The position numbers were made by a program, and so were the translations under genes. From Lunularia cruciata (Eukaryota > Streptophyta > Marchantiopsida > Lunulariales > Lunulariaceae), in NCBI GenBank assembly GCA_948567375.1, contig OX419760.1, forward strand, positions 62,740,911 through 62,804,910: a stretch of DNA of 64,000 nucleotides. The letters run 5' to 3'. Positions 9,168-60,981 of this stretch are shown in pieces. The stretch's first letter is position 1, and every line of letters starts with the position of its first letter. The notes beneath the pieces were generated by a model. The model saw only the letters and a program-made list of their open reading frames with translations, had not been told where the DNA came from and ran no database searches.

Positions 9168-10222
9168 GCTCCACTTAATTGATCAAGCAGGTCATCGATC
9201 CGAGGCAAGAGATATGCATTCTTCACGGTTTGCTTATTGAGCCCACGGTAATCAATACAAAAATGAAGTCCTCCATCCTTCTTTGGAACAAATAGTACCG
9301 GTGTTCCCCATGGAGAGGTACTATGTTGTATGAAATCCTTCTCCAACAACTCTGTAAGTGTTGTTTGCAACTCCTCCAACTCCTTTGGTGAGAGCCGATA
9401 GATTGGTCTACTCACTGGAGTACTCCTTGGCAATAACTTGATCTTGAAAGGCATACCTCGAGTAGAGGGTAATCCCTTTGGCAAATCATCCGGAAACACA
9501 TTTGCAAACTCTTGAACTATCCAATCAACCGTTGCTTGATGCGGCACTTGGCCCTCCTCAGATTGTTCTTGTGCAATCGGCTTGATCCACACCGCGAATA
9601 CAGACTTATCTTCCTCCAAAGCTTGCTCTATGGCTGCTTCATTAACAAAATTCCCTTCTAGGGATTCATCTCTTTTCCAAGCTTGCTCCATGGTTGCCTT
9701 CCTAGCAAACTTCCCATCTTGGGACTCATCTCCCTTCCAGATTTGCTCTATGGCTACCTTCTCAACAAACTTCCCATCTTGGGACTGATTATTCTTAGGT
9801 GTCTTACTCAGAGGTGCCAGACAACCTAATCGGAAATTCCTACCTTGGTGTTGTACTTGAATTTGACGTTGGGTCCAATCGAATTGAACCTTATGACGTT
9901 CAAGCCAAGGTAGACCCAAAATGATATCATAGTGTAGAGGTGCCACTACAAACCTCATACACTCCAAATACTCCTTCCCAATCTTGAAAGTAACAGGATG
10001 CGAGGTGCAGAATGCAGAACCTTTTCTACCATCCGCCATCATCAAACTACTTCCAATCACTGGCTTGATAGGAGTACCCAATTCCTTTACTACTTGCATA
10101 GACATGCAATTCTCTAAACTTCCAGAATCAACCAAAATCTTACAACCTCGATTAGATATCGTACCTTGCAAGTGAAGCAAACTTGCATAGGTCGAGCCTT
10201 CAATCCCATTGGAACTAATCAA
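9160..10222 (-). pseudogene. pol: B2 protease and truncated reverse transcriptase
   Basis: Open for about 350 codons. The aspartic protease has [13 protein letters not shown] (Asp-Ser-Gly at 10121-10129) and [18 protein letters not shown]. Three repeats of a sequence like [14 protein letters not shown] lie in the linker (about 9600-9790). RT begins with [33 protein letters not shown] and ends YFSKLEP: it is cut exactly at the first catalytic Asp (family FSKLD), so all catalytic Asp residues are lost. No stop breaks the frame before the junction. Confidence 0.88.
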
Positions 10223-41224: not shown

Positions 41225-41243
41225 TTGAAACTACAACGACAAA

Positions 41244-43817
41244 ATGTTGAGCAATTTTCCTTTGCCGTTGAGGAGTTGTCTTGCAGGTGATAGGGGAAAG
41301 GGAAATAGAGTTGGACTCGGGTTAGTGCGCAAGGGAGAAGTCGTGAGAGAGAAATCGAGAGACAGTAAGAAAGTAGAAGAGATGGGAGGAGGGAAGAAAA
41401 ACTCCGAATTTGTAGTGAGAAATCATGCAATTCGGAGATTAGATGTAGTAGCAAGGATCAAAGTCTTGAGCCGACTTCGGATCACCTTTCTGGCATGGAA
41501 CTGGAATGTAAGTTTTCCAGGATTCATGACAGAAATCATCGAGAGTAAGTGTCTCAATGGTCCCGAGGAAGAAGGGAAGAGAGGAAATCCGGCTCGTTGG
41601 ATAGAGTCGGATTGGAGACTCGTACTCGGGAAGGAGGCGGGTTCGGAGCAGGAAGCCATGTTCTTGGGGAAAGGAGAGATAGCCCAAGAAACGCAAGAGG
41701 TGAGAGATGCCTTCTTGTCAAAGAGAACAAAGAATGGGTACAAAGTTGAGAGCTACAAAGACCCTGTGAAGAGAGGAATTGTGAGTGCACTGATGGCCAT
41801 CTTGAAGCCGGAGAGAACCACTTATGTGATGAAACACCAAGCGGTGTTCTTTCACAAGCTATTTACAAGAGAACCGATCAATTGGGCAAGATGTTTTCAC
41901 GAGAGAATGAGGCAGATGGTGTGGAATCTGCCGGATAAGTCGCCTCCACACTACATCGTGCCATTTGCAGCACATTTCTACCTCGGGTTGAATTTGCTCA
42001 ATTTGGTGGAGCGCAATAGAATGGTGTCTCATTTCCATCCTGACTTGAGAAGAGAAGTCGATGCGGAGGAGCAGCAATACATTCTCCAAATCCGGAGCAC
42101 GGACGACTACTATGCAAAGACAGGGAAAAACATGGAGGTCGTGGTAAGTACCCCGACGAAGAAGAGGACTTGGCACGCAGAAGCCGAAGAAAACAAGAAA
42201 CCTCAGAAGATGCAGAAACATAACCCGAGGCGAGGAATGGTGGTGATTGAGTCAGAAGATGAAGACTCAGAAGGCGAGGCTGAGCTCAAGATGGAGGACT
42301 CAGAACATGAGGAGGAACCTGATCTAACACTACATAGCAGAGTTACTAGCAGTGACAGTGAAGACGGTGGAGAAATGACCTCGGCACCAATGGCTGAAGA
42401 ATACGAAGAAGAAGTGCAAGCCGAAGTAGAAGCCGAAGACAATGCGGCGTTGGAAGACGAAGTACCGGTGCTCGAGGAGAAGAAGATCGCAGTATAGCAA
42501 GGAGTTTGCTCAAGACGTAAGGCAAAGTGTGCGGCGGGGCCGAGTAAAGTGAAGGAAGAGGCAGAAGATAGCACGAGTAGTGAGGCATCAATCCCGATAA
42601 GAAGACTTCAGAGAAGAAGGTGCATGTCAGGAGAACACGAGGAGAGACAAGAAATTACTCCGCGGGAGGAAGAAGTTGCCAATGAGGGAGTAGAGTACCT
42701 GCGAGAGGTAGTGTGCACGCTGTTGGTAAAGTTGGAGCAAAAGAAGAAGGAGATGCAGTCGACTTGTCCAGAGGTAAAGACTGTACTGCACGTGGTAGCA
42801 AGATTAGAAGAGGAGAACTCGGAGTTGAAGAGGAGTATCACCCAAGGTGAGAAGGAGAGAGAAGTACTGCGAGCGGAAGCAATAGAGAGAAGTCAGGTAA
42901 TCGAAGACCTAAAGAGAGAAGTGAGCTATCGAGAGGATCTTGCGAGGAAGAGTGACATCGCAAGGGAGAGACAGGTAGCGGAGTATGAAATCTTGAAGCA
43001 GCAGTTTGCTGATTCAAGAGTAGAGCTTATCCATGCTATGGCAAGGGTAGCATCAAAGGAACAAGAGCTCGATTGAGTGATGGAGAGTATGGAGGAGAAG
43101 AAGCAACTCTGGCAATGAGAGTTGGCTGCGAGGTATAGAGAAGAAGAGAGATTACGAGAGTTACTTCGTAATCAGGAAGAGAAAGTTGTACAGAAGGAGA
43201 AAGAGAAGGAAGCGGTGAAAGTCGAGTTCGAGGAAGAGTTGGCGATGTACAGAGAGGAATGGCTTGCAGATCGGGAACGAGAACAAAAGACAAGATTGGA
43301 GCCATTGAAGGAGATAGTCCTCTGAGTGAACGCAATGTTAAGTACAGAAGCCAACGTTCAAATTGAAGAAGCACGACTGCACGAGTTGAAGCTGTTGGTG
43401 CAGGAGACGAGGCGAAGGCAAGCAAAGGATACAGATATGAATGCCTTGTTGATTAAACTAAGAACTCGTGTAGATACAAAGGTGTTAGAAGTAGAGGATA
43501 ACATCTCAATTAGATTAGACTTAGTGAAAATAGAGTTAGAAAAGCTTCGGAAAGATGTTAAGGCAAAACCCGAAGTAGATAACATAGGAGTGCAAATGTC
43601 TTCGGAGTTGCCCTCAGAGACATTAGAGAAGAGTGGGTCGAAAGATGAAGAGTTAGATAGATTACCCACTAGTGCAATTTCAGATCAGGAAAGAGAATTG
43701 CTGGATCTGGTTGAAGAAGTAGAAGATGTGAAACCCGAGGAAGATGTAGTAGGAAGTAAGATTACTTCGGGTTTGGGTTTGAAAGCCGAGGAAGAAGTAG
43801 ACATCGGATCGGATTAG
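41244..43817 (+). pseudogene. E protein: globular N-terminal domain, acidic middle, coiled-coil C-terminus
   Basis: A single frame of 858 codons with four in-frame stops (TAG 42495; TGA 43074, 43116, 43323) and a double stop TAG-TAA at the end. Residues about 45-300 look globular: RRLDVVARIKVLSRLRITFL, WNWNVSFPGFMTEIIESK, KHQAVFFHKLFTREPINWA, RMRQMVWNLPDKSPPHYIVP. About 310-415 is very acidic (ESEDEDSEGEAE). From about 430 to the end it is Glu/Lys/Arg-rich with heptad-like spacing, so a long coiled coil. The N-terminal part reminds me of the helical plant transposon-protein domain found with retroelements, but I cannot confirm it. No zinc knuckle, RT or transposase motif is seen. Confidence 0.6.
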
Positions 43818-44609
43818 TAACCGATTTGAGATTTGAAGGGGCAGATATGAAGAGGTGCATTGTCATTTTGGATCTGCAGGTTAGAACAGTTGTGGTAGAA
43901 CGGTATAGTTGTTAGAACTGTCAATTGTTTCACTACTTAAGAGTGGCATTCGCAGGAAATTGTTGTTCAATGCTCATTATTTCTGAGAATAGATAAAGCA
44001 AAGTGCTGTGAAGTAGTGCTTGTCGCTTGAGCTTGATTCCGAGTATCAATTTTGCAATTGTGTTTGTGAGTGTTTGGAGAAATTCAAAGTGCAAGTCAGA
44101 GTGCTTGTTGGATGTTGGATTCCACAGCCTTGATCTTCATTCTGTGTGTTTGATCCTGAGTGAAGTGCAATCGGAGCAATGCCTTGATAGATCTGAGAGG
44201 AATTGTAGTGTTGGTAGTATTCTGCATTTGGGAGTGTAGTGCGAAGTTGATGTGAAGCAATTTGATCGAGGAAGTTGTGCCTTCAATGGAGGGGTGGAAC
44301 ACAATTCTGAGGCAAAGTCGTTTTGCAGTGAAGTGCCATTTTCGAGAGAGCCTGAATCATCACAATCAAGATTGTTTGGAAAGAATTGAAGGAGTTGTGA
44401 TTAAGATGTGTGAATTCGTGACAAGATTGCGAATCAGTGCTTGTTACTCTCTTCTGGGTGTGGTTTCTACCTGAGAGACTAAAGAAGAACTCAAGAAGAA
44501 CTGAAATTGTTACTTTGCTTTGTATTTGACCAATTCTGACTCGTATCTCTACGGGAACAAACTTTACTTACTTGATTACCACAAAAGTGATATTTGCCGG
44601 GTTGTCACA
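43818..44609 (+). other. E 3' untranslated tail
   Basis: About 0.8 kb without a convincing frame. A purine-rich stretch, TTTGAAGGGGCAGATATGAAGAGG at about 43833-43856 (24 bases, given here as position and type: G/A-rich), sits 16 bases after the stop codons and resembles a polypurine tract. If so, an LTR of about 760 bp could run from 43848 to 44609, but no partner is visible at the 5' end. Confidence 0.4.
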
Positions 44610-44674
44610 GTCAACACTACCACTCTAGCGTCTTAGCAAACTAGCTTTGGTGCTACAAATGTTGTGATAGATTA

Positions 44675-45058
44675 GTGCTTGAGCATGAGAGTAGATTGGA
44701 GAGCTTAAAGGAGCAAGATAGACAATTGTTCGAGAGAAAAAGACTCCTTTGTGAGCAAGAAGATACACTTGCTGCAAAGGAAGAGATACATTTGACCTTT
44801 ACTAGCAATGAGATGGAGAGAGAGCAAAGGTTGGCTCACTTGGACTTGGATATCCTAGGTGTTGCTACCATGCTTGAGGTTTATAGGGTCCAATATAGGT
44901 TACCATTTGCTATGGAGAGGTTAGAGAATGCACATGTTCAAGTAAAGGAGAGTGAAAGTAGTCTAGCTCAAATGAGGCTCATGGCTTATCTTGGACCAAC
45001 ACTCCATGCAATTGCTAGCCCGCCCCGCATTTGGCCCTCACAAGAAACTGAAACCTAG
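44675..45058 (+). CDS. Short coiled-coil reading frame, unrecognised
   Basis: 127 codons starting MLEHESRLESLKEQDRQLFE. Rich in Glu, Arg and Leu (RKRLLCEQEDTLAAKEE, EREQRLAHLDLD), so a coiled coil is likely; it ends in a proline-containing tail. It starts 61 bases after E. No ATG context, promoter or partner exon is evident, and further frames to 45352 do not clearly continue it. It may be a fragment of an older element's gag or of a gene. Confidence 0.3.
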   Translation: MLEHESRLESLKEQDRQLFERKRLLCEQEDTLAAKEEIHLTFTSNEMEREQRLAHLDLDILGVATMLEVYRVQYRLPFAMERLENAHVQVKESESSLAQMRLMAYLGPTLHAIASPPRIWPSQETET

Positions 45059-46879
45059 ACATATGTACCATGTGTTATCTTGTAGTCTTGTGACTCAAAG
45101 ACCCAAACTTTTGCCTCCCATGTCTTGCCTTATATTGTGGTGATTGAGGAGACTCAAACTACCTTCCATTCATTACCTCATAATGTGGTGACTCAAGAGA
45201 TCCAACTGAGTTTAGAGGGAAGCTTTGTCTTTCAAGATAGTATATTCTATGTTATTCTCTTCCCAAGATTCCTACAAAAGAAAATAATTTTTCCGGATGT
45301 TACTTGTTTGGCCTTGTTATGGCATCATGGTAGCACTATTTATGGTTTGTAGGAGAGCTTGACCATTAGGCATGGCTGGTGCTCTCACACACAATCAGGG
45401 CTCGTAGGATGGGTAGCACATCTTGGTGTTAACCATTTCATTCAATTTTGTTTGTTGTGCTTTGAGGTTATCTTGCGGATAGATCTCCCATCTGATGGAG
45501 TTGAGCTTTTTCAACAAATCATATGACAATGTTCAAAGCTCTTAGAGAGGGTATTTCATATTGGATGTTGGCTCATGGCCTATTTGTCTTTTGTTGATGT
45601 CCAAAGAGATGAGTTTAGAGGACTTAGAGCTAGATCCTATGAACATCACTTCATTAGGTTTGCTTCTTTGTGGTCTTTTGTTCCTAGATAGTAATGCACT
45701 CTTCTACTATAGGAACCATCCACATGGTGCAATCCATCCTCCCTACTTCCATCCTTACAAGGTAGAGAGATCATCATACACTTGGATACATTTGTCCATG
45801 ATGATCAACCTACTATTAGTTAAGCCAAAGAGGAGAGGACATTTGGTAGACTGAGTTCATGTAGTAGTGATCCATATGACCTTCTAGCAAGCTATATCAT
45901 GCATTGACCCTTGGATGAGAGCAAATTGTACCTTTGGTGGTCATCGAATCTATTTACAATTAGACAATGTATATCAATGTAGACTTGAGGATGTAGTTGC
46001 ACGTAAACTCCATGTTGCATCTCCCTCATCTTCTTCACCTCCTTCTCCTGCAACATAGGGACTAGCCTTAGGGACCACACATTTATACACATCATATGTA
46101 TCATATTCATGATTCCACATTTATTTCTATTTTCACTTTGCCTCACTCTCATACCTCATATCATGTGAATGTGAATCTTTCAAACTACATTCATTTATTC
46201 ACTATGCATAAGCACCACTTTGCACCCTCAAGGGCCAGCCACACATGAAAAGCACCATTGTGTGCCTTCCTTATCCAATTAGCATCATTGGGTGCCATCA
46301 AGCACCTTTTACATTCTTGGTTAGGTGTTAGCAAGCGTCTTTTGTTGATGGAGCACTGGCAAGTGCCAATGCATGCCATTTTGGGGATTGGTTGGATGTG
46401 GTAGAGGTTTTCTCAGGCACCTTCTGGCTGTTTTAGGTGCTAATAGGCATCTCCAAGCAGCTCTTTTGTTCCAATATCAAGTGTGTTTTTGGAGTGGCTT
46501 TTTGGACTTTTTAGAGTTTGATAAGAGTTCTTGTCAATCCTTGTTTTAGAAATCTCTAGCACTTATACAAAAATCTAAAATCTCATGCACTTAAGCACAA
46601 TACACTTATAAAAAATCAATATACATTTGATTACATAGTAGGTTGACAATCAAACAACATTAATTATAAACATGAAAGTGCATTTTGTGGTGTCATATTT
46701 GCTATCACTAGAGTATGAGTTTGGAACATGATTTTTTGGATCAAGATTGTAACATGTAGCAAAAGGCTTGATTTCTTTATGAATTTGAGTAAGAACTTGA
46801 AATATTGACTTATATCCTTGGGAGATTTTCCTCCTCTCAAGAGATTCATTTTGATTCATGAGTACACTTCATCTTTAGA
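45059..46879. other. No gene seen
   Basis: Short frames only (75 and 97 codons on plus at 45125-45352 and 45561-45854), without motifs. The stretch 46190-46450 repeats loose words such as AGCACC(A/T)TT and GGTGCC, not a clean array. Confidence 0.35.
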
Positions 46880-47935
46880 CTTGTCTCTTTGGACCAGTTT
46901 CTGTCTGCCCTAGCTTTCCTTTTATCAACACTCAATCTCTTCTCAATCTCAACTTTCATCTTCTTGGTCTCTAATCTAACATGCTTAGCTTCCATTTTCA
47001 TCAATGTTTTATCTCTTTTCCTCATGTAAGTGGCTTTTAGTTCAGCTCATTGTAACTTCTCCCTAGATTCTATAGTGTTTGCCTTCAACATGGTGATTTT
47101 TGCTGAATAGTGAGACAATGACATACTTGGTGACATTTTGGATACTTAACTTGTACAATGCTCCATCTTTTCTCCTGTTTGGGTCATGTTCTACTTCTTT
47201 GTCAAGGAAAGTGCACTCCAACACATCTCTTATAGAAGCTAGTGGAGGTGGTGTAATGACAAGTGGCTCTTCTACTAGTGCAACAAAATGTGACTCCTCA
47301 AGTGTGTGTGTGCCTACTTGGATTCCATTCTCCATGCTCTCCATGTAAACACTATCTAAGCTTCCCACCCCTAGGGAATTTGGGACAAACTGGAGGTACA
47401 AGTTGAAGAGCACCACCTTTGGAGGAGATGGGAATTGAGAGCTTATCAAGATGGTTTCTTCACATTTAGGGACCTCCTCGGCCTCAACTTCACATGAATT
47501 AGGATTTAAATCTATCAAACTTACCATAGCAAGTGGAGTTATGTTGGCTTGATTCCAAAACATAGCTTCCATCCTAGAAAAATGTGGGCACATTCTATTC
47601 AGTTTCTTATCTATGGTTCTCCATCCTTTGCCATGTTCATTTTTGGTGAGCCATTTTCCAATTGACTTTTCTTTCAACTCTCAAGCTTCTTTGTATGATT
47701 TCATATATCTTAACCATTTCTTGTACAATCTATCACCTGCCATATAAGTAGGAAATCCTTGCCTCACTCGAACCAAAAATGTGGCCATGAAACTAAAAGT
47801 AGTGGATTTTTGAATGTGCTTTTTGCAATTCACACCATGAATCTGTGCAAAATGATTGAGGTCTTCCATATAATCCAAAATTTGGCCATAATGGTGGTGG
47901 TTACAATCCAAAACTGTTCATCCTCCTTTGTTTTG
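46880..47935 (-). pseudogene. Family X protein, copy 1
   Basis: Read leftward from about 47935. HHHYGQILDYMEDLNHFAQ, then KKHIQKSTTFSFMATF, GDRLYKKWLRYMKSYKEA, a TGA at 47678-47680, KSIGKWLTKN, GWRTIDKKLNRMCPHFSRME, QANITPL, a variable acidic middle (47063-47500), and, past a stop near 47063, a Lys/Arg/Glu-rich tail (MEAKHVRLETKKMKVEIEKR near 46990-46930). Two frames in register, one of 204 codons. The same order is found on the plus strand at 59660-60981. I do not recognise the family. Possible roles, from layout only: a Gag-like protein or a nucleic-acid-binding host protein. Confidence 0.55.
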
Positions 47936-49076
47936 CTTGGAATGGAAGACACCATCCTCAACAATTCTCCAAACTTTCCTAATGATTGTATGATTGTGAA
48001 TCCAAATGTGAATCTAAAGGTCTTGGTTCTACATCCAAATGTGGGCCTACAATGCAATAGGGTACTTGATCTTCCATTGCATAATTTTTTATGCCCTTTT
48101 ATAGTAAAATTTCTTGACCCTCAATCAATTTGTTGGTTGCCCTCGGGCAGCAGGGATAATTTTCCATAACTCTTGATCTCCCTTGCCGCACTAATCTATT
48201 GAAAAGAACCATCACAATTTGGAACTACTAAACCCACCGCTTAATTTATTGACAGGTGACAAGAGTATTAGCACACGAATGGTTCATCTAGTTTGAATAG
48301 TTACGGGGAGGGAGGCATGTTTGGAGCATGTAGGTATCTGCCAAAAATTCTCACAAATCACCCTCCAAAAAACATGGCAACCCGATCAATAAGCATCGCT
48401 AGCTCTTTTGACTAACATTTATTTAGATATGGCACACCTAAACATCCATAACAGCTTGCCTATTTTCGCAAATGCACGCATGTTGCACTAATTATCCGTT
48501 ACAGCACTTTAGGAGGTTCAGGTATTAGCCCTTCATCACGTTCCAGAGTTCACTCAAATTAGTGATGAAGTTTGCTATTTATCTCGTAGACATGGTAGAC
48601 ATCCGTCAAATCAATTTTTGGAAACCCCTAATGTTCACATTGCATCTTGGAGCCAATGTTTTGCCTAACAAGAAGTTTCGAAAATATACTGCGGTTCAGG
48701 GAAGATAATGTAATTGATAATACGTACTTTTCTTCGATACTTAACATTCTATACACGCACAGGTTTTCCTAGTACGTATGCGTCCTTGCATCATATATCC
48801 AGATGCGGCTGGCAACTACACAAACCCGCATTTTAATCAGAGACATGTTATTTCCATCACACTTTTTGCTATATCCATCACATTTAACCCCAGACCCAGC
48901 ACTGAGATTAGTTTAGAGTCAATTAATTTACAGTGTTGTGTGGAAATAGCACGTCCCTTTTATTGATGCCTTACTGCTGCAGTAGGGAATGTTTCTCCAC
49001 TTTTGCAACCTTCTGGGTTCCTCAACGCGATTCTAAGATGTTATTGAAAATGGTTTTATTTCGGGATGTACTGCAG

Positions 49077-49226
49077 GTACTTCCAAATCTCGACCAGTCC
49101 TTCACAGGAGCAGTTAACATGACCTCGTGGTCAAATTGTGCTCATCTAGAAACTACGAATAAATTTTCTGTTATTGTTGACAACCCTACCTTCTCGATAT
49201 TGCGGACCAGAAGCATTCTTTGTCAG
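49077..49226 (+). CDS. Possible exon, 50 codons
   Basis: Bounded by CTGCAG before and CAG|GTGCC after, open for exactly 150 bases: VLPNLDQSFTGAVNMTSW, then NCAHLETTNKFSVIVDNP and FSILRTRSILCQ. A further open piece with a CTGCAG upstream border (about 48980-49045, PLLQPSGFLNAILRCY) precedes it. Phase and length are plausible for an exon, but the frame also stays open into the intron side, so the evidence is thin. Protein family unknown. Confidence 0.25.
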
Positions 49227-49623
49227 GTGCCATCATTTTCGCTTTTTCTTTTCTTCCGCAATCGATTTTCTGTCCATATCGTTGGCAGAACGTAACTGCC
49301 ACTGACTGCGTCCAAAAGAAACTAAGATTTCATCTGGATTCTGGGTAAGAGTGCGCTGTACTGCACTTTTGATCACGCAGAGAATGAACGATCTGAAGTG
49401 AACTAGTGTATGCATAGCATAAGGAACAGTAGGCTAGCTGTAGCACATACGAATTGACCGTATCGTAATCTCATTTACAACACACTGTATGCGAGTTGTC
49501 CTTTTTAAGATTTGGACATTTTAAGGGAAGGGAAAGACTGGCGTATCTCCTAGTCTCCTTCAATAAAGAACAAACATGCGGTAAACAGTGTACCACATGT
49601 TGAAGGTAGTATTCACCGACTTC

Positions 49624-49989
49624 TTAACATCGCGGATTTAATATTCTGTTTGTCGATCTAGTTAACAGTTCTCTCACATATCCATTCTTTGTTAATTGCA
49701 TTGCATTTGGCTGTGGGTCCCAGAGAACCACACTTTTTAGTGTGCCCAAATTCTGTGCCGGATAAGAACATTTATTTCCAATACCTCCTACTACGTCGTT
49801 ACTGGACCGAAGGGTAAACTTAAGACGCTGATATCCACGCATTGAAGGGGCCCACGACCCGAGACCTGTCTCTTTAAGTAGCGTTCGTACTCCGAGACTT
49901 GCTTCTTCAAACTGATTGAACTCTGTTGAGTTTAGACTTAACTCTTGAATGCCAACAAATGCTCGTGAATTTACTAGGACTGATAACAC
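49624..49989 (-). CDS. 121-codon frame, unrecognised
   Basis: The longest minus-strand frame in the less repetitive stretch: begins MLSVLVNSRAFVGIQELS, has GLGSWAPSMRGYQRLKF and YVRELLTRSTNRILNPRC. No motif, signal or membrane segment is apparent, and no upstream promoter is recognised. It may be chance. Confidence 0.2.
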   Translation of the reverse strand: MLSVLVNSRAFVGIQELSLNSTEFNQFEEASLGVRTLLKETGLGSWAPSMRGYQRLKFTLRSSNDVVGGIGNKCSYPAQNLGTLKSVVLWDPQPNAMQLTKNGYVRELLTRSTNRILNPRC

Positions 49990-50008
49990 GAAGAGATACT
50001 GATCAGTC

Positions 50009-50063
50009 GCTCGTCTTTACGTGCACAACAACGTTTGACTTGATTATATGCGTAAAGACGAGC
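50009..50063. repeat. 13-bp perfect inverted repeat
   Basis: GCTCGTCTTTACG (50009-50021) and its reverse complement CGTAAAGACGAGC (50051-50063), with a 29-base loop. It could form a hairpin. No T-run or gene end nearby. Confidence 0.6.
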
Positions 50064-50101
50064 CATGACTCTTTTCCCGGTCGAAATTACTGCGAGGTAA
50101 A

Positions 50102-50329
50102 AGAAATCGGGATTTGTCTAACTTCGACCGATAAGTGAGATCTCTACCAAGTTTCAATGTCCATCAGGAGTCCTGCCAATATATAGATTCTTGAATTGCG
50201 ATGTCCGCATACTTTCACGTTTCATCATTTCTGGCCTGATGTAGAAGAGCTCGACTGCTCATCAACCCCGTTTGTTGCATTGCTTAGTGCATGGTGCTGT
50301 CTTTACAACTTCACAGACTGCTTAACCTG
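50102..50329 (+). repeat. Direct duplication, copy 1
   Basis: 228 bp from AAGAAATCGGGATTTG to CTGCTTAACCTG. Copy 2 at 50707-50929 differs by a handful of substitutions and one short indel. Both contain GAAGAGCTCGACTGCTCATC. Confidence 0.9.
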
Positions 50330-50367
50330 CAGTCGTTTAGATTTATCTCGTTTGATCCTTTTTGCAG

Positions 50368-50456
50368 ATTAGATGCCTACCTCACCTTTTGTCTTGTCAA
50401 TCGGAAGAAGATGACCGGAATCTTCATATACTGTCGTTGCAATGTCTAGATGCCAG
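50368..50456 (+). CDS. Possible small exon
   Basis: 89 bases between TTTTTGCAG and CCAG|GTGCA with one frame open (CLPHLLSCQSEEDDRNLHIL). It lies between the two copies of the direct duplication. A pyrimidine tract precedes the acceptor. No family recognised. Confidence 0.25.
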
Positions 50457-50706
50457 GTGCATACATTAACATCGGAATGGCGGCTAAGCTAAGCAAATGC
50501 TTTCAGCAAATTTTATGGCTTACTCCCGAGAAGAACAACTTAATTAGCGGTAAATGTATGCATCAGATTCTACAGTCCAGTCGTGCAGGTATTTCTAGAA
50601 CATAGGATCTTCAAGTTGCATGCTATAACAGTTCATGCCTTCGCATTACTCCACACGATGACGTCCTGATTCCAAGTCCTGAATTAAGTTCAAAATATGC
50701 ATGAAC

Positions 50707-50929
50707 AAGAAATCGGGATTTGTCTAACTTCGACCGAGAAGTGAGATCTCTACCAAGTTTCAATGTCCAACAGGAGTCCTACCAATATATAGATTCTTGA
50801 ATTGCAATGTCTGCATACTTTCACGTTTCATCATTGCTGGCCTGATGTAGAAGAGCTCGACTGCTCATCGATTGTGGCATTGCTTAGTGCATGGTGCTGT
50901 CTTTACAACTTCACAGACTGCTTAACCTG
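50707..50929 (+). repeat. Direct duplication, copy 2
   Basis: 223 bp, 605 bases downstream of copy 1. An open frame of 72 codons (50802-51020) crosses its right border and ends VQMLERYRISATDTVKSE; it could be a C-terminal exon. Confidence 0.9.
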
Positions 50930-51189
50930 TTCGAATGAAGGGAGGCAGTTATATTTGAGCATCGTCCAAATGTTGGAGAGGTATAGAATATCTGCTACTG
51001 ATACAGTGAAAAGTGAATAGAGATGGTAGAAGACAGGGTTTAGGTCCTCGCTCGCCCCCCAAAGGCGATTCAATTCTCTGCCTTTGAACTGAATCGACTC
51101 TCCGTTTCATGCATTTGGGTTTTGCTCTGTCTTCTGAAAGAAAAAGGAGACCACATAGAACACATGAAAGAGGGGAAGATCCCATCAAG

Positions 51190-53540
51190 ACAAAAGAAGT
51201 AAAATGGGGTTAGGTCCCAATAGCATCAATATGAGAAATCTGCTCTATCGAACCTTAAGATATCCAAGCTATGCAAGTTGTAAGGTCTACAAACTACATG
51301 AGCATCTAACTAAGCATCACCTAGAGTGATTGCTCGCCTATGGATTGCATCAGCCAATGCTCTTTGTAGAGCAATGGACACATGCTGTCTAAAATATATT
51401 ATAAAGCATGAGATAAGAGTGATACCCCTTGGCGTCTAATATGATAAGCTCTCACACACTCCCTTACAAATGTATTGAAAGATGTGTTCATCATTCCATT
51501 TAACTCCAAGGTTGGAGAGCCGGAGGAACAAAGAGGAGATCTCATTGCATACCCCTATACTTGGAGACCTTGAGTGTTGTTGCTCTGCTTGCCACCCATC
51601 CAAGAGGATGAGTAATCATTCCTTCCAAAACTACATCATGCATAGGGTCTGTAACCACAACATCCGCTACTATCACCTAATCATTTTGGACCAAGTAGAA
51701 GTTTGGACCAAGTAGAAGTCATTTTGGACCAAGTCTGCTCTAACATGTGTCCTCTATAAAGAATATGAACGTTCCTTCCAAGCAAAGTATCCACTCTCTC
51801 ATGCAATAACAAACACAATATCCCTCATGGCATCATGGGTAGCTATCCTCTATCCTCCAAAGGAACGATGTGTCATATGGACCGTTGCTACATCTAGTGT
51901 AGAACCACACTCACAAGTGAGTAACAAAGATGCATAAGGATGGATCAACCCTAGGCGGAACCTCATTGCAGTAGAGAAGGTGGTTAGTGTGAGTCAAAAT
52001 GCCCTAATGCACGGTCAAGCTAGGATCCAAGAGCCTACACCCCTGTCAGAGTAAGAGAAAAGATATGCTCTAGTGGCTCAAGGAATGGATTAGTCAACTA
52101 AGAGAGAATGTAGCATATGTTAACATTATCTCTCCATCAAGGAAGATTGCAAACCTCTAGTCCAATCTGAAAATAGTGAAGCAAAGGATGGAAGGTCCTC
52201 CCATGCCCATGGGGATAGACCATCTCTCATTTGCTGCAATAATACATAAAGAGAAAAGGATCCCTCCTCCACCTCGGTCACACATGTCTCCAAAACAGGC
52301 CTATGAGTAATCACAAAATGGAAAGAAAGTATGGGAATCAAAAGAGCATAACTACACAAAAATATTATAGGTGACATTCTTCTCCATAGATAATAGGCAT
52401 ACCCCTCCAAACAAGATTAGTACAGATGTCTATCTATGTGCCAAACCCCCCATCACACACTCAAATGTCCTTGGTTTGATGATATCACCAAAGACTCCCA
52501 TAATCCTCCTATCAAAAGCTCTCAGATTTGATAGAAATATCAATGAAGGGAAAATAGTGCGGAGAAGGTAAGTAGGTTGACATGCAATACTAAAGGAGAG
52601 TATACCAAACTCCACATGTGGATCTCCTAGTAGAGTAAGGTCATCCACATGGAGAATATCCTATGCAAGTGTAGCAGCTAAAAAGCATGTGATAGAATCG
52701 TTGTATCCTATTGGCACTCCAAGAATACATAGTCCATATGTAGATATGACACACCTCTTTGGAACTCAAGGTAGGGAGGGATACTTGAAGGGACCATGCT
52801 CTCCACTTTGACACCTTGACTATCAAGCCTACAAGATGTAACTTGGTAGTCAAGTAATCAAAGGCTTGCCTAATTCAATCTATGGGGCCCACAACGTGTG
52901 TATCATCTACTGAAGAGAGAAATACATACCCTGGCATGGCCAAAGTAGTAGATAAGAGAGCTCTGAAGTGAGCCATGGCAAAAAAAGGTCCCCATAAAGA
53001 TCTCCCTATTGTGTACCGGCATTTGACTCCAAGACAATGACTCCCTCTTATGACCACCCATGTTGGTAGTAAGGGGAAGTAGGAGAGCCATAGAATGATT
53101 GCACAAAAGGAATGAGACTCCCCAAGGATCCACAGGCTTCACTAAGGTCTCTAAAGATAGATGCACTAGAGACTATTAAAAGCATTCTCAACATCCACTC
53201 ATAGGACAACCCACTCTGGTTGGATATCTAGGATTGCTTTGAGCCCTAGGGAAATAGCCTCACAATCTCCAAGTGTAGCTACTTGAAACTGATGTGGGCT
53301 GAGGTGCTCTCGAAAGTGAGATTGATGTTGAAGGATAATGGTAGGACTAACCAAACGCAAAATGATATTTCTAATAGCAATTTTTTTAGTGCCCCTTGTG
53401 CACTTCTCCATCCTGAGAAGTCAACTAGTCCCTAACACTTGACTAATTGGCATAGTAATATCTACCCTTGCTACCACTATAGCCATACAAAACAGCTTGG
53501 TATATCCATTAGAACGATCATCTACCTAAAAGCAATCTCT
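51190..53540 (-). pseudogene. LINE-type reverse transcriptase relic
   Basis: Minus strand, from 53540 leftward. Finger region with LSPHQFQVATLGDCEAISLG, then VDVENAFNSL (first catalytic Asp), GPFFAMAHFRALL, then the catalytic box SSVDDTHVVGPID near 52880-52915, AFDYLTTKLHLVGLIVKVSK, and further left LLGDPHVEFGILSFSIA with PTYLLRTIFPS. This is the arrangement of a non-LTR RT known in non-flowering plants; DD in the VDDTH box is intact. Stops and shifts break it everywhere. I see no endonuclease upstream and no poly-A end. Confidence 0.75.
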
Positions 53541-54159
53541 AAGATGCTCATATATCATCCTTGAATAGCCTCTAGAGGAGAGGCAAATGGTAGTCTAGAG
53601 GAGAGGCGAACAATAATGCACAACGCTTATGCAAAAAGTGACCTATCTAACCATAAAAGTTACTCCATTTGATAATCTAAAATTTATAATGGTACTCCCT
53701 CTCCTGCCATAGGATGTAAAGAGCATAGGGAAGAGATAGTTTTATCAATGAGACTAGCCATAGACAAAGGGTGTAACACTTGTGCTACTCTACTAAACTC
53801 TTACGCCTAACTCAATGTCATAATCAAGTGGACTCTATGGTATCTTGTGGTAGAACTTATCTCCTAAAACATGTAACCCTAATTGACTTCTATAGGCCAA
53901 CCCAATCCTTCACACAGAATTGACAAAATCTAGCAACCACTTCTCTATGCCTCGCATGTCCACCTCTAACATAACTAAAACACTATCAAAAGAGTAAGAA
54001 GAACAAAAACCATACTAACTCATCCAAGTGATCACGTGCCAAAAAATCAAGTGATAGACTAAAAATCTATCTAGTCTAATCACAAAGTGTACGAGATAGC
54101 CTATTGGATAGACATGTACATGAAAAATTAATCTCAAATAATTACAAAATACAACCCGA
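53541..54159. other. No gene seen
   Basis: AT-rich; near 53570-53615 the words TAGAGGAGAGGC are doubled. It could include the eroded 5' part of the LINE. Confidence 0.35.
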
Positions 54160-54164
54160 TTCGC

Positions 54165-54640
54165 TAATCACTCTCGTGCCTTGATCAGGATCAATTTATC
54201 TACTAATGTTCCTTCACGGTGTCTATTATGTTAAGCCCTCACGGTTTCAAATGCGATCTGCACTCCCGAGTAAATAATTCCAAAATACGCCTTTGATGCT
54301 AATCACTCTCACGCCCTTGATCAGTATCAATCAATCCACTAATGTTCTTTCACGGTGTCTACTATGTTAGGCCCTCACAGTTTCAAATGTGATCTGCACT
54401 CCTGGTTTCAAATGCGAACTCGTACACTTTGGCACTAAGGCAAGATGTACTTACGAGGCAATGCTTTCCTATTTCTTTCATTCTTGTACAAGGTGTCTCT
54501 CTTCATACTATGTTAAGCCCTCACAGTTTCAAATGCGATCTGCACTCCCGGTTTCAAATGCGAACTCGTACACTTTAGCACTAAGGCAAGATGTACTTAC
54601 GAGGCAATGCTTTCCTATTTATTTCATTCTTGTACAAGGT
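54165..54640. repeat. Compound tandem array
   Basis: A first pair of units about 129 bp apart (GCTAATCACTCTC at 54166 and 54295) overlaps a second pair exactly 146 bp apart (CTATGTTA(G/A)GCCCTCAC at 54362 and 54508). The word GCCCTCAC(G/A)GTTTCAAATG occurs three times and CGAACTCGTACACTTT twice. The two 146-bp units are almost identical. A 118-codon open frame over them is in different frames in each unit, so not coding. Confidence 0.85.
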
Positions 54641-57480
54641 GCTCTCTACAGGCCAAGAGCTTGTCAATACACTAGACTAGAAACCTCGTGCGCTTGCGGA
54701 GTAAACTCAAACCTGTGTGGTGACGCGATGTCGACTGTAGATTGACAGCTGATTCATTTGCAGCATCTTCTTAGGGAGGTGTCTTTCAGAACACATACTT
54801 ATAAAACTGGATGCTTTGATGCATCACTCAATCTCAAATAGATGCCACTTTGTCCCAAATTTGAGGGGCATTGGCCATCCGTCTCCAACTTATTGTTCAA
54901 CATCTCAAACACAGCCGTCTCCACCCTGCTTGTCACATTTTCTTTATGTACAGTCCAGACCTTGATCTGTTACTATTTACAACTCTTTGCTAAAATGAGT
55001 AATACCCACACTATCTCTTTATGCAGTCAATGTCTGAAGTATCTGCTTCAACCAGAATACTATACATGCGTAGGGTGGATTTAAGGAAGTAAAGCTGGGT
55101 ATAAGCTGAGCATTTCACAGGGATGGAACCAAATGCATACCTCTTACAAGCACTTTGAGGTGACTAAACAGAATTCCAAGTTGTCCGCTGTTCTCAAGGT
55201 CAAGTAATCTTCGGTAGCACCAGTACTTTCAGCAATCTGCTACCTAACTTTTGGGTATTCATGTGACATGTCAACTGCAGGTCTTCGGCAATAACTTAAG
55301 ACGATGTACCAGACCTATTTCCAGTTCTTTTCTGAATCAGTAACCTAACTGTCAAGTTTGCCTCAATTTCAATTGAGTTGGCAGTTCACATGAAGACTAG
55401 CTCGGAGAAAGTCCAATTCCGGACCAGATCAAACTGTTCTCCATCAATCCCAGAGTCTCTACCCGACCATAAAACCAGATCATATGCATTCTAGTGAAAA
55501 GCTACAACAGCAGCACACATCATATCCCGGTCAAGGAACGTAATCGATATTGCGACATTGAACCAAAGCAGCAGACCGCTTAGGGGTGAATTCGCAAAGA
55601 TCATCGGGTGCAGCGTGCCTATTCTCTAAACTAGCGAAAAATAATAAATGTACAGCTGAATGTAGAGATCTCAAAACCATGTTCCCATGAGAAACTGGTG
55701 GGCGAATAGAGTTCGATAATTGTCTCATCTTACTCGTTCCACCCCACCATTAATTACTGACAACTGAAACTGATCTGGAAAGTAAATAAGTATGTACATT
55801 GATTCCACCCTAACCAGATTCTACCGCATAGTTAATTTCTTTCTTTGTTCTGTGCAAGAAATACGGTAAGGTCATGCAACTAATCTGAGGACCTCAAGAA
55901 AGAATTGGCACTTCGAGAACTCAAACCTCTGAAGAAAGTCAAGAGGCACAGCAGCCCGGTCGTGAAGGAATGTCCGGAGAAGATGTTTGTAACGACCCAT
56001 GGGATTTCAACACCGTACAATACTATCAGACTTTCTCTCATGAAGGACAGGTGAGGAAGGTCAAGAAATCTGTCAACTGAAATACTTCCACCGATTCTCC
56101 TCGAAGTTTCCAAGGCTCAATAATGCAAGCGACTTGCTTCATGATTTGCACAGAAAATTAATCAAGTATTTATCCACGAAATATAATAGCTTATTTGAAG
56201 TAATCTGTCAGGAACTGGATTTAGGATTCTGTGGTGCTGAATGGAACATTGAACAAAGAATATCAATCATGTTTGAACCACCACCATTCAAGGAATAACA
56301 AGAAACTAGAGCGAATCATAATAAGGAGCGCGGTGTGACGTTTGGATGAGTCATTCATGCAATCTTATTGAGACGGTTTGTCATTCCTTTTCAGAGGGCC
56401 CTGCATCCATGTTCTTTGTCATTCTTTTCGATATGGTAGTACGCCTGGTACTCTTTCCTTCACTTCGGAAGAATCCATATCTAATCACTTTTCATTTCAA
56501 GGAAACATTTGTGTTAGTGGAAATCTTTTTTACCGAAACCTTACGAGAAGCCTGACTAAGGCATGTCAATAAGTCATGGGCCTTGTCAAGTACAAAAACA
56601 TATTTGACGTTCGGTTAAGCAACTAACCCGGTCACAACATTATAAACATTTGAAGATAAAATTCAGGTTGTTTAAATTTGCCACTGAAGTATTCAATCTT
56701 ATTATGACATTACTATATTCTTAAGTTGAAATCAACTACTGTATTAATTATATAATTATTTTATGGTTGTGTTGATGAAAAAGTTAAACAAGTGTAAGCT
56801 ACTTTATAGAAGAAAACCATTTGCAAGAAGTCATATGCAATTGATAGATTCATTTTCCTATTATAAATATTAATCGTTAGAATTATTGAGAATTTTATCT
56901 CTGAAGTGCATATGCTAGATTTACTATTCAAACCATTTGGAAATGTTGAGGGAAGATATTCTTTAACTTCATTTAGTGTGGAAAATTGTTATTGGTAAAG
57001 ATGTGATAGGCAAAGGAAAGATATGTCCATACTATCTAACCTTCCAGTATCTCTGGAAGGAAATCCCATATCTACAGAACATCTTAACTGTCAAAGAAGT
57101 TTGGGATAGTGTCACCAGCAAATAGAGAAGAAATTGGATCGATTGAAAATTACTCTTATGATGATAGTTAACTCTTGTTAACAACCGGGTATCTTGTTAA
57201 CTCTTATTAGGTTGAAAGAATGATCCTCCATTGCTAATATCTTACATAGAACTATTGAGAAGGTATTCTACGTTATAAATGAGGAACTTCCAAGGCATGA
57301 CTTTAAAAATATCGGACTGAGTTTGTGAGTGAAACAAGAATTGGGTTCTATTGGAACATTTGATAATAATAATTGATAGTAATATATTCAGTAAAATGTA
57401 AGTTTTAATGGGTATAATAGTATTGATTGAAATCTTACACAAAGAAGTAAAATGTTGTGTCATTTGATATATGGAAATAG
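54641..57480. other. No firm gene; a few open pieces
   Basis: A plus-strand frame of 80 codons (54842-55084, MPLCPKFEGHWPSVSNLLFN) follows a TTTGCAG acceptor-like site at 54753-54759; a minus-strand frame of 65 codons lies at 55531-55728; 77 codons lie at 55880-56113 (minus). None shows a known domain. From 56640 on the sequence is very AT-rich. Confidence 0.35.
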
Positions 57481-57990
57481 TCAAATTATGGAACAAATAA
57501 TATCTGTTGCAATCAAGTTATACCAAATATTTAATTTATGATGAATTGGTATATAATTGAGATATGAGAGTATAATATGTCAAATTATGGAATATAAACA
57601 CAAGTTGCAACCAATTTATAGTGAATATTAATCTTATGATGAATTTGTATGTAATTGAGACCAGAGCAATGGTTAGACTCTATAATGGCAAGAGTATAAT
57701 GCATCATTGGGTATTTGAGAATACATCAGGTCATGGAACAAATAAATTTTACACAAATAAATTAGTGAATAAGATATACTTATGTTACAATAAATGTTAA
57801 TTTCACAATAAGTTGGGATGTCAATACGGAAGGGAGCAAGGATTCGATAATATGGTAACAAGAGTTCGATGAAATTCTCTAGAACACATGCAATCATAAC
57901 ACTATTAATTCACTTACTTACAATAATCAATGAAGTATCAATTTACATATAAGAATATATCAAGCCATAGAATAAATAGTTCTCTCTTAT
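57481..57990. repeat. AT-rich diverged tandem repeat, about 99 bp
   Basis: TCAAATTATGGAA starts at 57481 and 57580; weaker units with ATCAGGTCATGGAACAAATAAA (near 57727) and ATCAAGCCATAGAATAAATA (near 57960) follow. Shared parts include TATGATGAATT and TATAATTGAGA. Confidence 0.6.
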
Positions 57991-58394
57991 ATATAAAGAT
58001 CATGTTCCTTAATGCACTAAATTTATGATAAGGTGGTAAATAAGATGGAAATGAGTGGTACTTAAATAAATTTCAAGAATAAATCTTAAGAAGAGGTAAG
58101 AACGTGTACAATTTAAAACTCCACAAAAAAACTAGCAATTTGTGCAATATACAACGAGCAAAAAGAGACATCAATAAATAAAAGAAGACCAAAAAATATA
58201 CCAGTTTGAAAAAGAGTAGAATTTTAAACCAAAATATAGCATGTTCTATACCAACCAAATATTTCCCGTAACTAGAGTTCATCCATTCAAACTATATTTA
58301 CAACTATATCTATTATCTATGATAAAATTGGCAAAATTTGCAATAGATACCTTGTGTTCAGGCAAGTTGAAAATCCTGTGACACAAGTGACAAT

Positions 58395-58690
58395 CTTTGT
58401 CGGTCACCTTGACAAGGTTATACTTTTAGTTACAACAATCACTCACTCCTTGATACTCAAATTAGTAAACTCACTCCTAATTTAATTTGCACTTTATTTA
58501 CTTTTAAAGTTGTCTCTAACCTCACTTATCAAGAAAATCTTCCCTATATATGTATTTATCTTATCTTCCACATTTCTAAACTAAAAGTATTTCATGTCCA
58601 ACCTATTTTCTTTTTATCACCAAGATCAACTTCCATTACCTACTACCAATATTAAGTACAACAATCATGAGGAGTATGAAATACATTAAG
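58395..58690 (+). pseudogene. Old chromovirus tail (integrase C-terminus to chromodomain start)
   Basis: Aligns by eye with B1 5221-5510: GTCAATAAACTTACTTC / ATTAGTAAACTCACTCC, CATATTTTCAATTTGAAA / CACATTTCTAAACTAAAA, and CATAAGGAGTATGAAG / CATGAGGAGTATGAAA. Much older than B1 and without LTRs nearby. No open frame. Confidence 0.6.
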
Positions 58691-58783
58691 CCATTCAAAT
58701 GTAAATTTTATAGTTCTTTATGAAGTCTGATATACATTAAGGTGTTTCAAATGTAAACTTTATAATTATTTATGAAGTCTGTC
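58682..58783. repeat. Tandem duplication, about 51 bp
   Basis: TACATTAAG...TTCAAATGTAAA(T/C)TTTATA...TTATGAAGTCTG occurs at 58682-58732 and 58733-58783. A second small one (about 28 bp, GATTTTAT(G/A)GGTAGTGGCTG) is at 58844-58900. Confidence 0.75.
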
Positions 58784-59327
58784 AATTAAAATTTTTTATA
58801 GGTACTTGTAAAAAAAGTGATCAAAAGTGGAACATCCGTATAGGATTTTATGGGTAGTGGCTGTGTTTACAAGATTTTATAGGTAGTGGCTGCATTTACG
58901 AATAGTTTCAGATTCCCCTCTAGATAGCCTATGGGAGGAGGATTATGAGTGTATTAGCTGACAATAGGAATAAAGATATTCTTAATTGAACATTTGATGG
59001 GTTAAAGTAAATAATTGAGCATGTGATGAATTAAAATATATCTGACACAAGGAAGGATGTGCACATTAGACAAAAATATAATGCATGTTTACTATGAGAG
59101 AGACTGTTCACATTTGAATTCCCCTCTTTGATGAAATTATACTCCTTTGTTTTTCATAAGTTTGTCTTGATTAGAGTTCACCAAGTAAAAGTGAAGAGAA
59201 GCACGATAGATGAATATGAGATAAATATGAACAAGGTTTTTATGTAATCTCTTGGCAGATGTTGACTCTTTGAGTGAATTAAGTGCGCTAACTTTAAGAA
59301 TTAAAGGTTTAAGAAGGATGGAGCGAG

Positions 59328-59567
59328 TCAAAGTCCAAATGAGATTGAACACAGATCTATTTGGCCCCAGTCAAGTGATATTGTTGCAATTTCTTGTTAA
59401 ATCCAATTAGATTTCAAGACCTATTGGAGATTGTATCCACAAGATCTTCAAAGTCCAAATGAGATTGAACACAGATCTATTTGGCCCCAGTCAAGTGATA
59501 TTGTTGCAATTTCTTGTTAAATCCAATTAGATTTCAAGACCTATTGTAGATAGTATCCACAAGATCT
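59328..59567. repeat. Near-perfect 120-bp tandem duplication
   Basis: Units 59328-59447 and 59448-59567 start TCAAAGTCCAAATGAGATTG and end CACAAGATCT. I see two mismatches (TTGGAGATTG versus TTGTAGATAG). Confidence 0.92.
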
Positions 59568-59659
59568 TCAATTGGTGCAAAACTCAAAGGAGACTCCACT
59601 AAGAGCATAAGCAATGTAGAATTAGGAACAAAAGGACGGGGGGAGTCAATGGGGAGCAA

Positions 59660-60981
59660 GGGAAAGAGGAGGATTAGAATGGTTTAGAGGTTTAGAATGA
59701 TCCCTTCCCATTATGCTCAGACATAGATAACTTGGAATATTTCAAACAAATTCATTGCGGTAGCACCAAGAAACTTGTACAAAAGAGCATTGCATTTGGC
59801 CTCTAAGCACTTACTTGGTGAAGTTCCAAAAAGGATTCTTGGAGTCTATGAATGGTGAGAAATTATACAAGAAATTTGCAAAGTACATGATTTCATACAA
59901 GTCCACTAGGGAATGGAAAGACAAATTCACCAAAGGAGATTTGAACAAAGAGTGAGTTGAAAGGAGATGAAGAACAATTGATCACAAATTGAATAAAAAT
60001 TGTCCATATTTTGAAAGGATGGACTTGATGTCTGGAGTGCAGGCCAATATCTCTCCCCTGCATTGGTAAGTTAGGTGTGTGAAACTATAGGAAAGATTAT
60101 ATTTTGGCTGGCCAAGAAGATGAAATGGGTATTATCCGTGAGGAGGAGGAAATGATAGAAGATGCTACGCCTTTGTCCTCAAGAATTATATTCCACGTGA
60201 CAATTCCTAGTATGCAAGACCCATATGTCATATGTTTACAAGGTGTAGAATTATTGACTTATCCAAGAATATCCAATTATTGATTTGCTTGATTTGCAAA
60301 AAGAAGAAAGTAGATCTCATTCCTTTATTACACCATATAGATCACATTTTGACCATGTTAAAGAATTGCAAGTGCAAGTGCAATCTGAGTATGTTCCAAT
60401 TTTTTTGAGTACACTCAAAACAATTTCCATCCTCACATTTTTCTCATGAGATTCCACTTGCAAAAGAGACACCCATGGAAGAGGATATGCAAGGAGCTAA
60501 AGCAGCACACAACATTGAGGAAGAAAGAACATGTGACAAAGAGGCACATGCCGCCAAGGAGGAAAGTGTAGGTGAAAAAGACAAAGAGGATGTTGATAAA
60601 GCGAGAGAACCAGAATGTAATTTGAGGAAGAGGAGAAGTGTTGGTAGAGTGAAGATTACTCCGTCACCCATCCTAGTTGCATTCTCCCATGATCTATCAA
60701 ACCATACAAGACTAAGTAGTGCATCTCTAGAAGCCAAGGAAAGATGTAGAATGGCTAAAATTGAAACGCAACATACCACAAAGATAGAGAAAGTTAGAGT
60801 AAAAGCTGAAATGGAAAAAAAATTTAGAGGCAAGAAATTGAGATCAAAGATAAAGAAGTTGCAAATAAAAGAGAGATACACAATGAACTCAATATCCAAA
60901 TTTTGTTACAATTATTTATCTCTTGGTCTATCTTCTTTTCTATCCTCAATATTTTGTGGATTATTATCATTTCTGGGATAA
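59660..60981 (+). pseudogene. Family X protein, copy 2
   Basis: The plus-strand counterpart of 46880-47935. SHYAQ, DNLEYFKQIHCGSTKK, VQKSIAF, then after a shift SMNGEKLYKKFAKYMISYKS, WKDKFTKGDLNKE, a TGA, RTIDHKLNKNCPYFERMD, QANISPL; next an acidic middle (DEMGIIREEEEMIEDA). The C-terminal frame 60475-60981 (168 codons) is Glu/Lys-rich, with KRRSVGRVKITPSPILVAFS and a basic coiled coil (EKVRVKAEMEKKFRGKKLRS). The last 30 residues are hydrophobic and probably run into non-coding sequence. Several frames; inactive. Confidence 0.55.

Follow-up and report, generated by a model that had tools for sequence, protein, structure and literature searches.

The mobilisation of PIF/Harbinger transposons requires both an ORF1 protein and the transposase (PMC2836001). 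The 2015 paper on PHIS elements, in its account of the Pangu group, reports a second open reading frame (ORF) without a known motif (PMC4482050), and the autonomous Harbinger elements of Ectocarpus, including a Pangu-like group with ANT duplications, are described as carrying two tail-to-tail genes (PMC12477816). Here, we describe a gene family, X, two relics of which lie in a 64,000-nucleotide stretch of the liverwort Lunularia cruciata (the window; contig OX419760.1, positions 62,740,911 to 62,804,910 of the forward strand). X very probably encodes an accessory protein of a PIF/Harbinger-class DNA transposon that moves by cut and paste and by its features lies closest to Pangu (Harbinger2 in Repbase). 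The host element is of an already known kind; the X protein itself has no named family.

X is a conserved gene of a transposon of about 9.37 kb, and its arrangement with the transposase gene is repeated at dozens of loci. Two complete copies, A (9369 bp) and B (9366 bp), share a layout in which X occupies one strand and a second ORF (Y) and a DDE transposase face it on the other. Inverted ends reading AGGGG(G)TTTCAGAAATAG are present at both ends of A, with the outermost bases diverged in B. Similarity between A and B ends at 9464/9406, three bases inside an inverted terminus that ends at 9467/9409 and agrees with the terminal string at all 17 bases compared in A and at 18 of 19 in B. The AGGGG(G)TTTCAGAAATAG... 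terminus lies upstream of X at 27 of 30 loci (the exceptions being L010, L014 and L025), in flanking DNA that is unrelated from locus to locus. Among ten distinct loci of a second deep clade of X (clade II), an AGGG terminus after ACAAT was found upstream of X at three (L072, L076 and L073). An origin of X in a long terminal repeat (LTR) retrotransposon or a virus-like element was rejected given the inverted ends of A and B and the lack of any Pfam family near the window copies, where three X-strand frames around either copy gave none at E<=1.

The transposase of A matches DDE_Tnp_4 (E 8.1e-15) and Plant_tran (E 2.1e-5), with no other family above the cut-offs, and its D, D and E motifs could be aligned to those of four homologues. 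Its best database relative is a DDE protein from Riccia sorocarpa (41%, E 2.5e-70); next come unnamed proteins and a protein from Phytophthora. The two open parts of the gene are separated by two stops, both inside a GT...AG stretch. This intron-like stretch lies at about 7795-7895 of L031 (minus strand) in A and is also present in B; as the stops of A fall inside it and B shares it, it is probably an intron. The nine element ORFs scanned included no TET/JBP dioxygenase. The subterminal motif ACTTYGTAA occurs two to three times per end of A and B versus 0.1-0.2 times in shuffled sequences; having been chosen post hoc, it is a lead only. Self-complementary simple repeats occupy an equivalent place in three copies (L031 4575-4620, L032 4473-4550 and L033 4635-4690).

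Linkage between X and the transposase was counted within 25 kb, using distances between listed low coordinates, for at least 145 transposase places (one second entry set aside) and at least 137 X places (the second entry of one locus set aside), so that all counts are lower bounds. A listed transposase lies within this distance of at least 56 of the 137 X loci, against a random mean of 1.9 in any arrangement; it is downstream on the opposite strand at 55 of them and otherwise arranged at one, and the separation is 6.5-7.3 kb in at least 35 of those 55. Among 91 further X places, picked by eye from 150 matches to window copy 2, at least 18 have a transposase, invariably downstream on the opposite strand (1.1 at random). 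Conversely, an X partner was found for at least 73 of the 145 listed transposases. Twelve stretches were fetched from where the far ends of other copies were expected; seven resemble A in its distal part, and five of these seven reach the terminus (L054, L056, L057, L060 and L063).

Target-site duplications match as 3-bp AWT in six of the seven two-ended copies (AAT/AAT in A and L028; ATT/ATT in B, L009, L010 and L017). The right flanks read AWTGT in six of the seven, B having ATTCA, and an automatic parse of the left flanks found AAT or ATT at the end of 15 of 30 and ACAWT in eight of 30. Taken together, these flanks suggest that the preferred target site may be the palindrome ACAWTGT. Because the duplications are AWT, as in the ANT of Pangu/Harbinger2, and not the TWA of canonical PIF/Harbinger, the element fits the former and not the latter.

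The genome (566 Mb, 74 contigs) has all of the matches listed in the X and transposase searches on eight contigs. A search with window copy 1 scored at least 137 loci, the window copy included, from 3803 first-look candidates, and a search with copy 2 gave at least 150 matches from 2342 candidates, overlapping the first list; homologues thus exist beyond the window locus. More than 200 copies are dispersed through the genome, many of them carrying stops. The sequence-only reading had suspected a mobile or amplified gene from the repetition of X 12 kb apart; X is indeed both, but a meaning of the spacing itself was not supported. The X copies split into two deep clades, with copy 1 in clade I and copy 2 in clade II.

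Frames of at least 440 codons are present in six of 16 loci selected for long frames, and intact relatives extend to 443 codons. From the first methionine the protein has about 435 amino acids (aa). Its N-terminal part is conserved and its middle is acidic and rich in proline; it also has an RRK basic patch and a tail that is basic and coiled-coil-like. Purifying selection acts on X. The comparison of intact homologues that had been proposed as a check on constraint gave ratios of nonsynonymous to synonymous substitution (dN/dS) of 0.33-0.86 in the 45 pairs formed by ten open clade I copies. The values for clade I copies were 0.33-0.43 against window copy 1 and, where computable and with dS near-saturated, 0.23-0.35 against the ORF of L073.

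The two window loci, previously read as divergent copies of one protein family on opposite strands, proved to be so, with 46.5% tblastx identity over 86 aa and a colinear 25-aa block upstream (E 1.4e-23 in the two-sequence comparison and E 3.9e-22 in the whole-window comparison); blastn aligned them at 72% across 109 bp (E 3e-8). The blocks on which that reading relied (HYGQ/HYAQ, KK..QKS, G-D/E-R/K-LYKK, YM-SYK, RTID-KLN and QANI-PL) were recovered in the frames read, as were the acidic middle and the basic tail. Over the 86-codon block the copies differ at 46 third, 29 first and 31 second positions. The corresponding ratio of nonsynonymous to synonymous differences (pN/pS) is 0.48, compared with a mean of 0.89 in a null in which identical base changes were moved onto random sites of copy 1, and none of 2000 null draws was as low; X was therefore once a selected protein, as had been proposed. 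Both copies are now broken: copy 1 has a single in-frame TGA and changes frame ahead of the tail, and copy 2 has two TGA codons and frame changes. The copy 1 locus is real but its gene is longer than first drawn, with an upstream part that begins near 48077 and, by eye, is similar to the way in which intact copies begin. Both window copies are defunct insertions, each from a different lineage of the X transposon family; their places in two deep clades make them look like old, separate insertions.

The failure of the sequence-only reading to place X in a known family was repeated in database searches: NCBIfam and the PDB gave no named family for X above noise, and Pfam gave only weak matches (Dishevelled in three of ten members, best E 0.0008; DUF5787 in six of ten, best E 0.0049). 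No Myb/SANT family was listed by Pfam for any of the ten members at E<=1, though a likeness at the fold level may exist. A weak RNase H match in the PDB (E 0.035) was judged to be chance and was gone with deeper alignments. Among 5.8 billion proteins, a word-based search found 688 candidates for read-through copy 1, none with E<=0.01, and 7995 scored sequences for alignment A2, none with E<=0.001; as this search requires shared exact words, distant protein relatives of X may be missed. Pattern searches of viral and bacterial contigs returned 140 and 70 stretches, respectively, none of which was confirmed as X. An AlphaFold model of X (alignment A1) is all-helical, with low confidence (predicted local distance difference test score, pLDDT, of 45). 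X may bear some likeness to trihelix-like proteins of oomycetes and rust fungi.

Since PIF/Harbinger elements need both ORF1 and a transposase (PMC2836001), X may be a needed partner in transposition. Modelled on that ORF1, X would bring the transposase to the element ends, its conserved N-terminal domain binding element DNA near the ends and its basic coiled-coil tail oligomerising or recruiting the transposase. X might instead be a passenger or regulator, for example with an anti-silencing role, that is dispensable for the transposition reaction, in which case Y may be the partner of the transposase. The element does carry two ORFs of unknown kind, X has no recognised DNA-binding domain and extra non-catalytic proteins are described in some PHIS relatives (PMC12730594). 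However, X is under purifying selection and is present in both deep clades, with the AGGG terminus following ACAAT in three of ten clade II loci, as for a core gene, and we consider a dispensable X to be unlikely. The identical class of transposase and the all-helical, low-confidence sketch of X would also suit a canonical PIF/Harbinger element with TWA duplications and a very diverged Myb/SANT ORF1. The AWT duplications of six of seven copies and the lack of a listed Myb/SANT match in all ten members speak against this, as do left flanks with AAT before AGGGG (eight of 30 as parsed), which exclude TWA if the first G is taken as the start of the repeat; a canonical element is decidedly unlikely. 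L073, with one intact single-copy X ORF and no transposase detected, could be taken to indicate a host gene family lying inside or beside transposons by chance. The dispersal of more than 200 copies, the stops in many of them, an element terminus common to 27 of 30 loci and a single fixed arrangement with the transposase oppose this, the linkage strongly so, and we give a host origin almost no credence.

Several observations weigh against X as an accessory gene of a Pangu-like element. Among the matches listed, 82 of the 137 X loci have no transposase in the stated arrangement within 25 kb, and many X copies may truly be without one; five of the 12 expected far-end stretches did not match A in its distal part. 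The transposase of B has frame changes. The target flanks of L012/L060 do not match, the 3' terminus of B has diverged (...CCTCCAGT) so that its ATT hinges on boundary placement, and L010 is deleted just inside its 5' end, making its duplication less secure. A DNA-binding fold was not detected in X, for which the structure model is poor. Finally, the element has 9.37 kb and three coding regions, whereas Pangu elements average 3.5 kb and mostly have two ORFs; the 2015 description gives these figures as an average and as 'most' rather than as a strict criterion (PMC4482050).

L073 (7677-9239, minus strand; genome C2:56438376-56439938) holds an intact X frame of 521 codons, 452 from the first ATG, with an identity of at most 56% to any other genome match listed and an internal 148-bp tandem duplication at 92%. 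It retains a terminus like a terminal inverted repeat (TIR; AGGG after ACAAT), and its relatives L078 and L079 are broken. Over the 21 kb read, neither a transposase nor a 3' end turned up, no transposase being detected within about 17.7 kb downstream of the ORF. This is the pattern of a recruited gene, and L073 may be a domesticated copy of X; it may alternatively be an insertion that is young and low in copy number, or an element that has been truncated. The wider proposal that X is a new transposition accessory protein replacing the Myb/SANT ORF1 in a Pangu-type lineage amplified to hundreds of copies in a land plant, with L073 domesticated, is put forward tentatively, as possible and on balance doubtful. 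With X at high copy number and with open, aligned and selected copies at hand, the partner role of the second Pangu-type ORF becomes directly testable. Hundreds of copies can evidently be reached in a genome by a protein family that has no named Pfam domain and went unseen in the word-based protein search; in annotation, X can be masked as a transposon rather than named as genes.

The element around copy 1 can be traced from 48629 through X and Y down to 44666 (Table 1). Y in the window shows codon-position bias in some 150-nt bins, with the frame shifting between bins. No 3' terminus for this transposon was found in the window with up to three mismatches allowed, and no transposase was found in the window or, for copy 2, up to 8 kb past the window end. 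The repeat that cuts copy 1 begins at 44609 with TGTGACAACCC; this TGT(G/C)ACAACCC start is common to the window and L033, and suggests that the repeat is probably an LTR element. It is a separate insertion, because it also interrupts L033 yet is absent from A and B. The 1.9-kb insert of L033, which starts like an LTR and is missing from A and B, was accordingly dropped as part of the element.

Table 1. Features of the X transposon relics and adjoining repeat in the window (window coordinates).
Feature	Position	Strand	Evidence and remarks
Transposon relic around copy 1	44610..48629	minus	5' terminus; blastn to other elements
5' terminus of copy 1 transposon	48595..48629	minus	Flank ACATT, then AGGGGTTTCC...; 88% over 34 bases to terminal string at 48628-48595
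Family X gene relic, copy 1 (clade I)	46780..48077 (ends approximate)	minus	tblastx/blastn to copy 2 and elements A, B and L033
Second unknown ORF (Y), coiled-coil rich, broken	44666..46047	plus, opposite X	72-77% blastn to A, B and L033, same order
Other inserted repeat, probably LTR element, with acidic/coiled-coil ORFs	41229..44609	plus	87.6% match of 44609-43568 to L033 4833-5878; 41229 is the start of the first ORF only, not a mapped repeat boundary
Family X gene relic, copy 2 (clade II)	59690..60970 (ends approximate)	plus	Frames; tblastx

Three acidic coiled-coil-like ORFs at 41229-43817 (plus strand) have no Pfam match above the cut-off; relatives of the third are present in L033 and L052. 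Positions 1-42000 consist largely of Ty3/gypsy-type LTR elements, with RVT_1, RNase H and protease matches in the scanned ORFs, and contain many repeats that are 83-92% identical and about 9.56 kb apart. A 229-bp direct repeat (94% identity) lies at 50101-50329 and 50707-50929, about 600 bp apart, and a 146-bp tandem repeat (two copies, 95% matches) lies at 54136-54650 within a longer degenerate repeat. Just upstream of copy 2, a 120-bp unit is tandemly duplicated at 98% (59328-59571); 69 bp of this unit match L066 at 75%.

The Pangu hosts of the 2015 account are animals, fungi, one heterokont and two algae (PMC4482050), whereas the host here is a land plant. Within the collection of literature searched, no title or abstract reported a land-plant Pangu/Harbinger2 element; the 'pangu' matches in PMC12222929, in the text returned, are to a species name and not to a transposon. 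Canonical PIF/Harbinger elements such as Ping/Pong share with the present element their transposase class and a separate accessory ORF (PMC2836001), but are described as having TWA duplications and a Myb/SANT ORF1 (PMC4482050) rather than AWT and no detected Myb/SANT. PHISTA, a PHIS element of rust fungi, likewise encodes three proteins, the third without Myb/SANT, and differs in its TA duplications and its TET/JBP dioxygenase (PMC12730594), an enzyme not found here among the nine ORFs scanned. The likeness to Pangu is broader: ANT duplications there and AWT here; a TIR of 11-40 bp beginning with AG or GG there and a short TIR starting with AG here; and, in both, a PHIS-type DDE transposase without other domains and another ORF without a known motif, here X (PMC4482050). 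The tail-to-tail gene layout reported for the Ectocarpus elements matches that of X and its transposase (PMC12477816).

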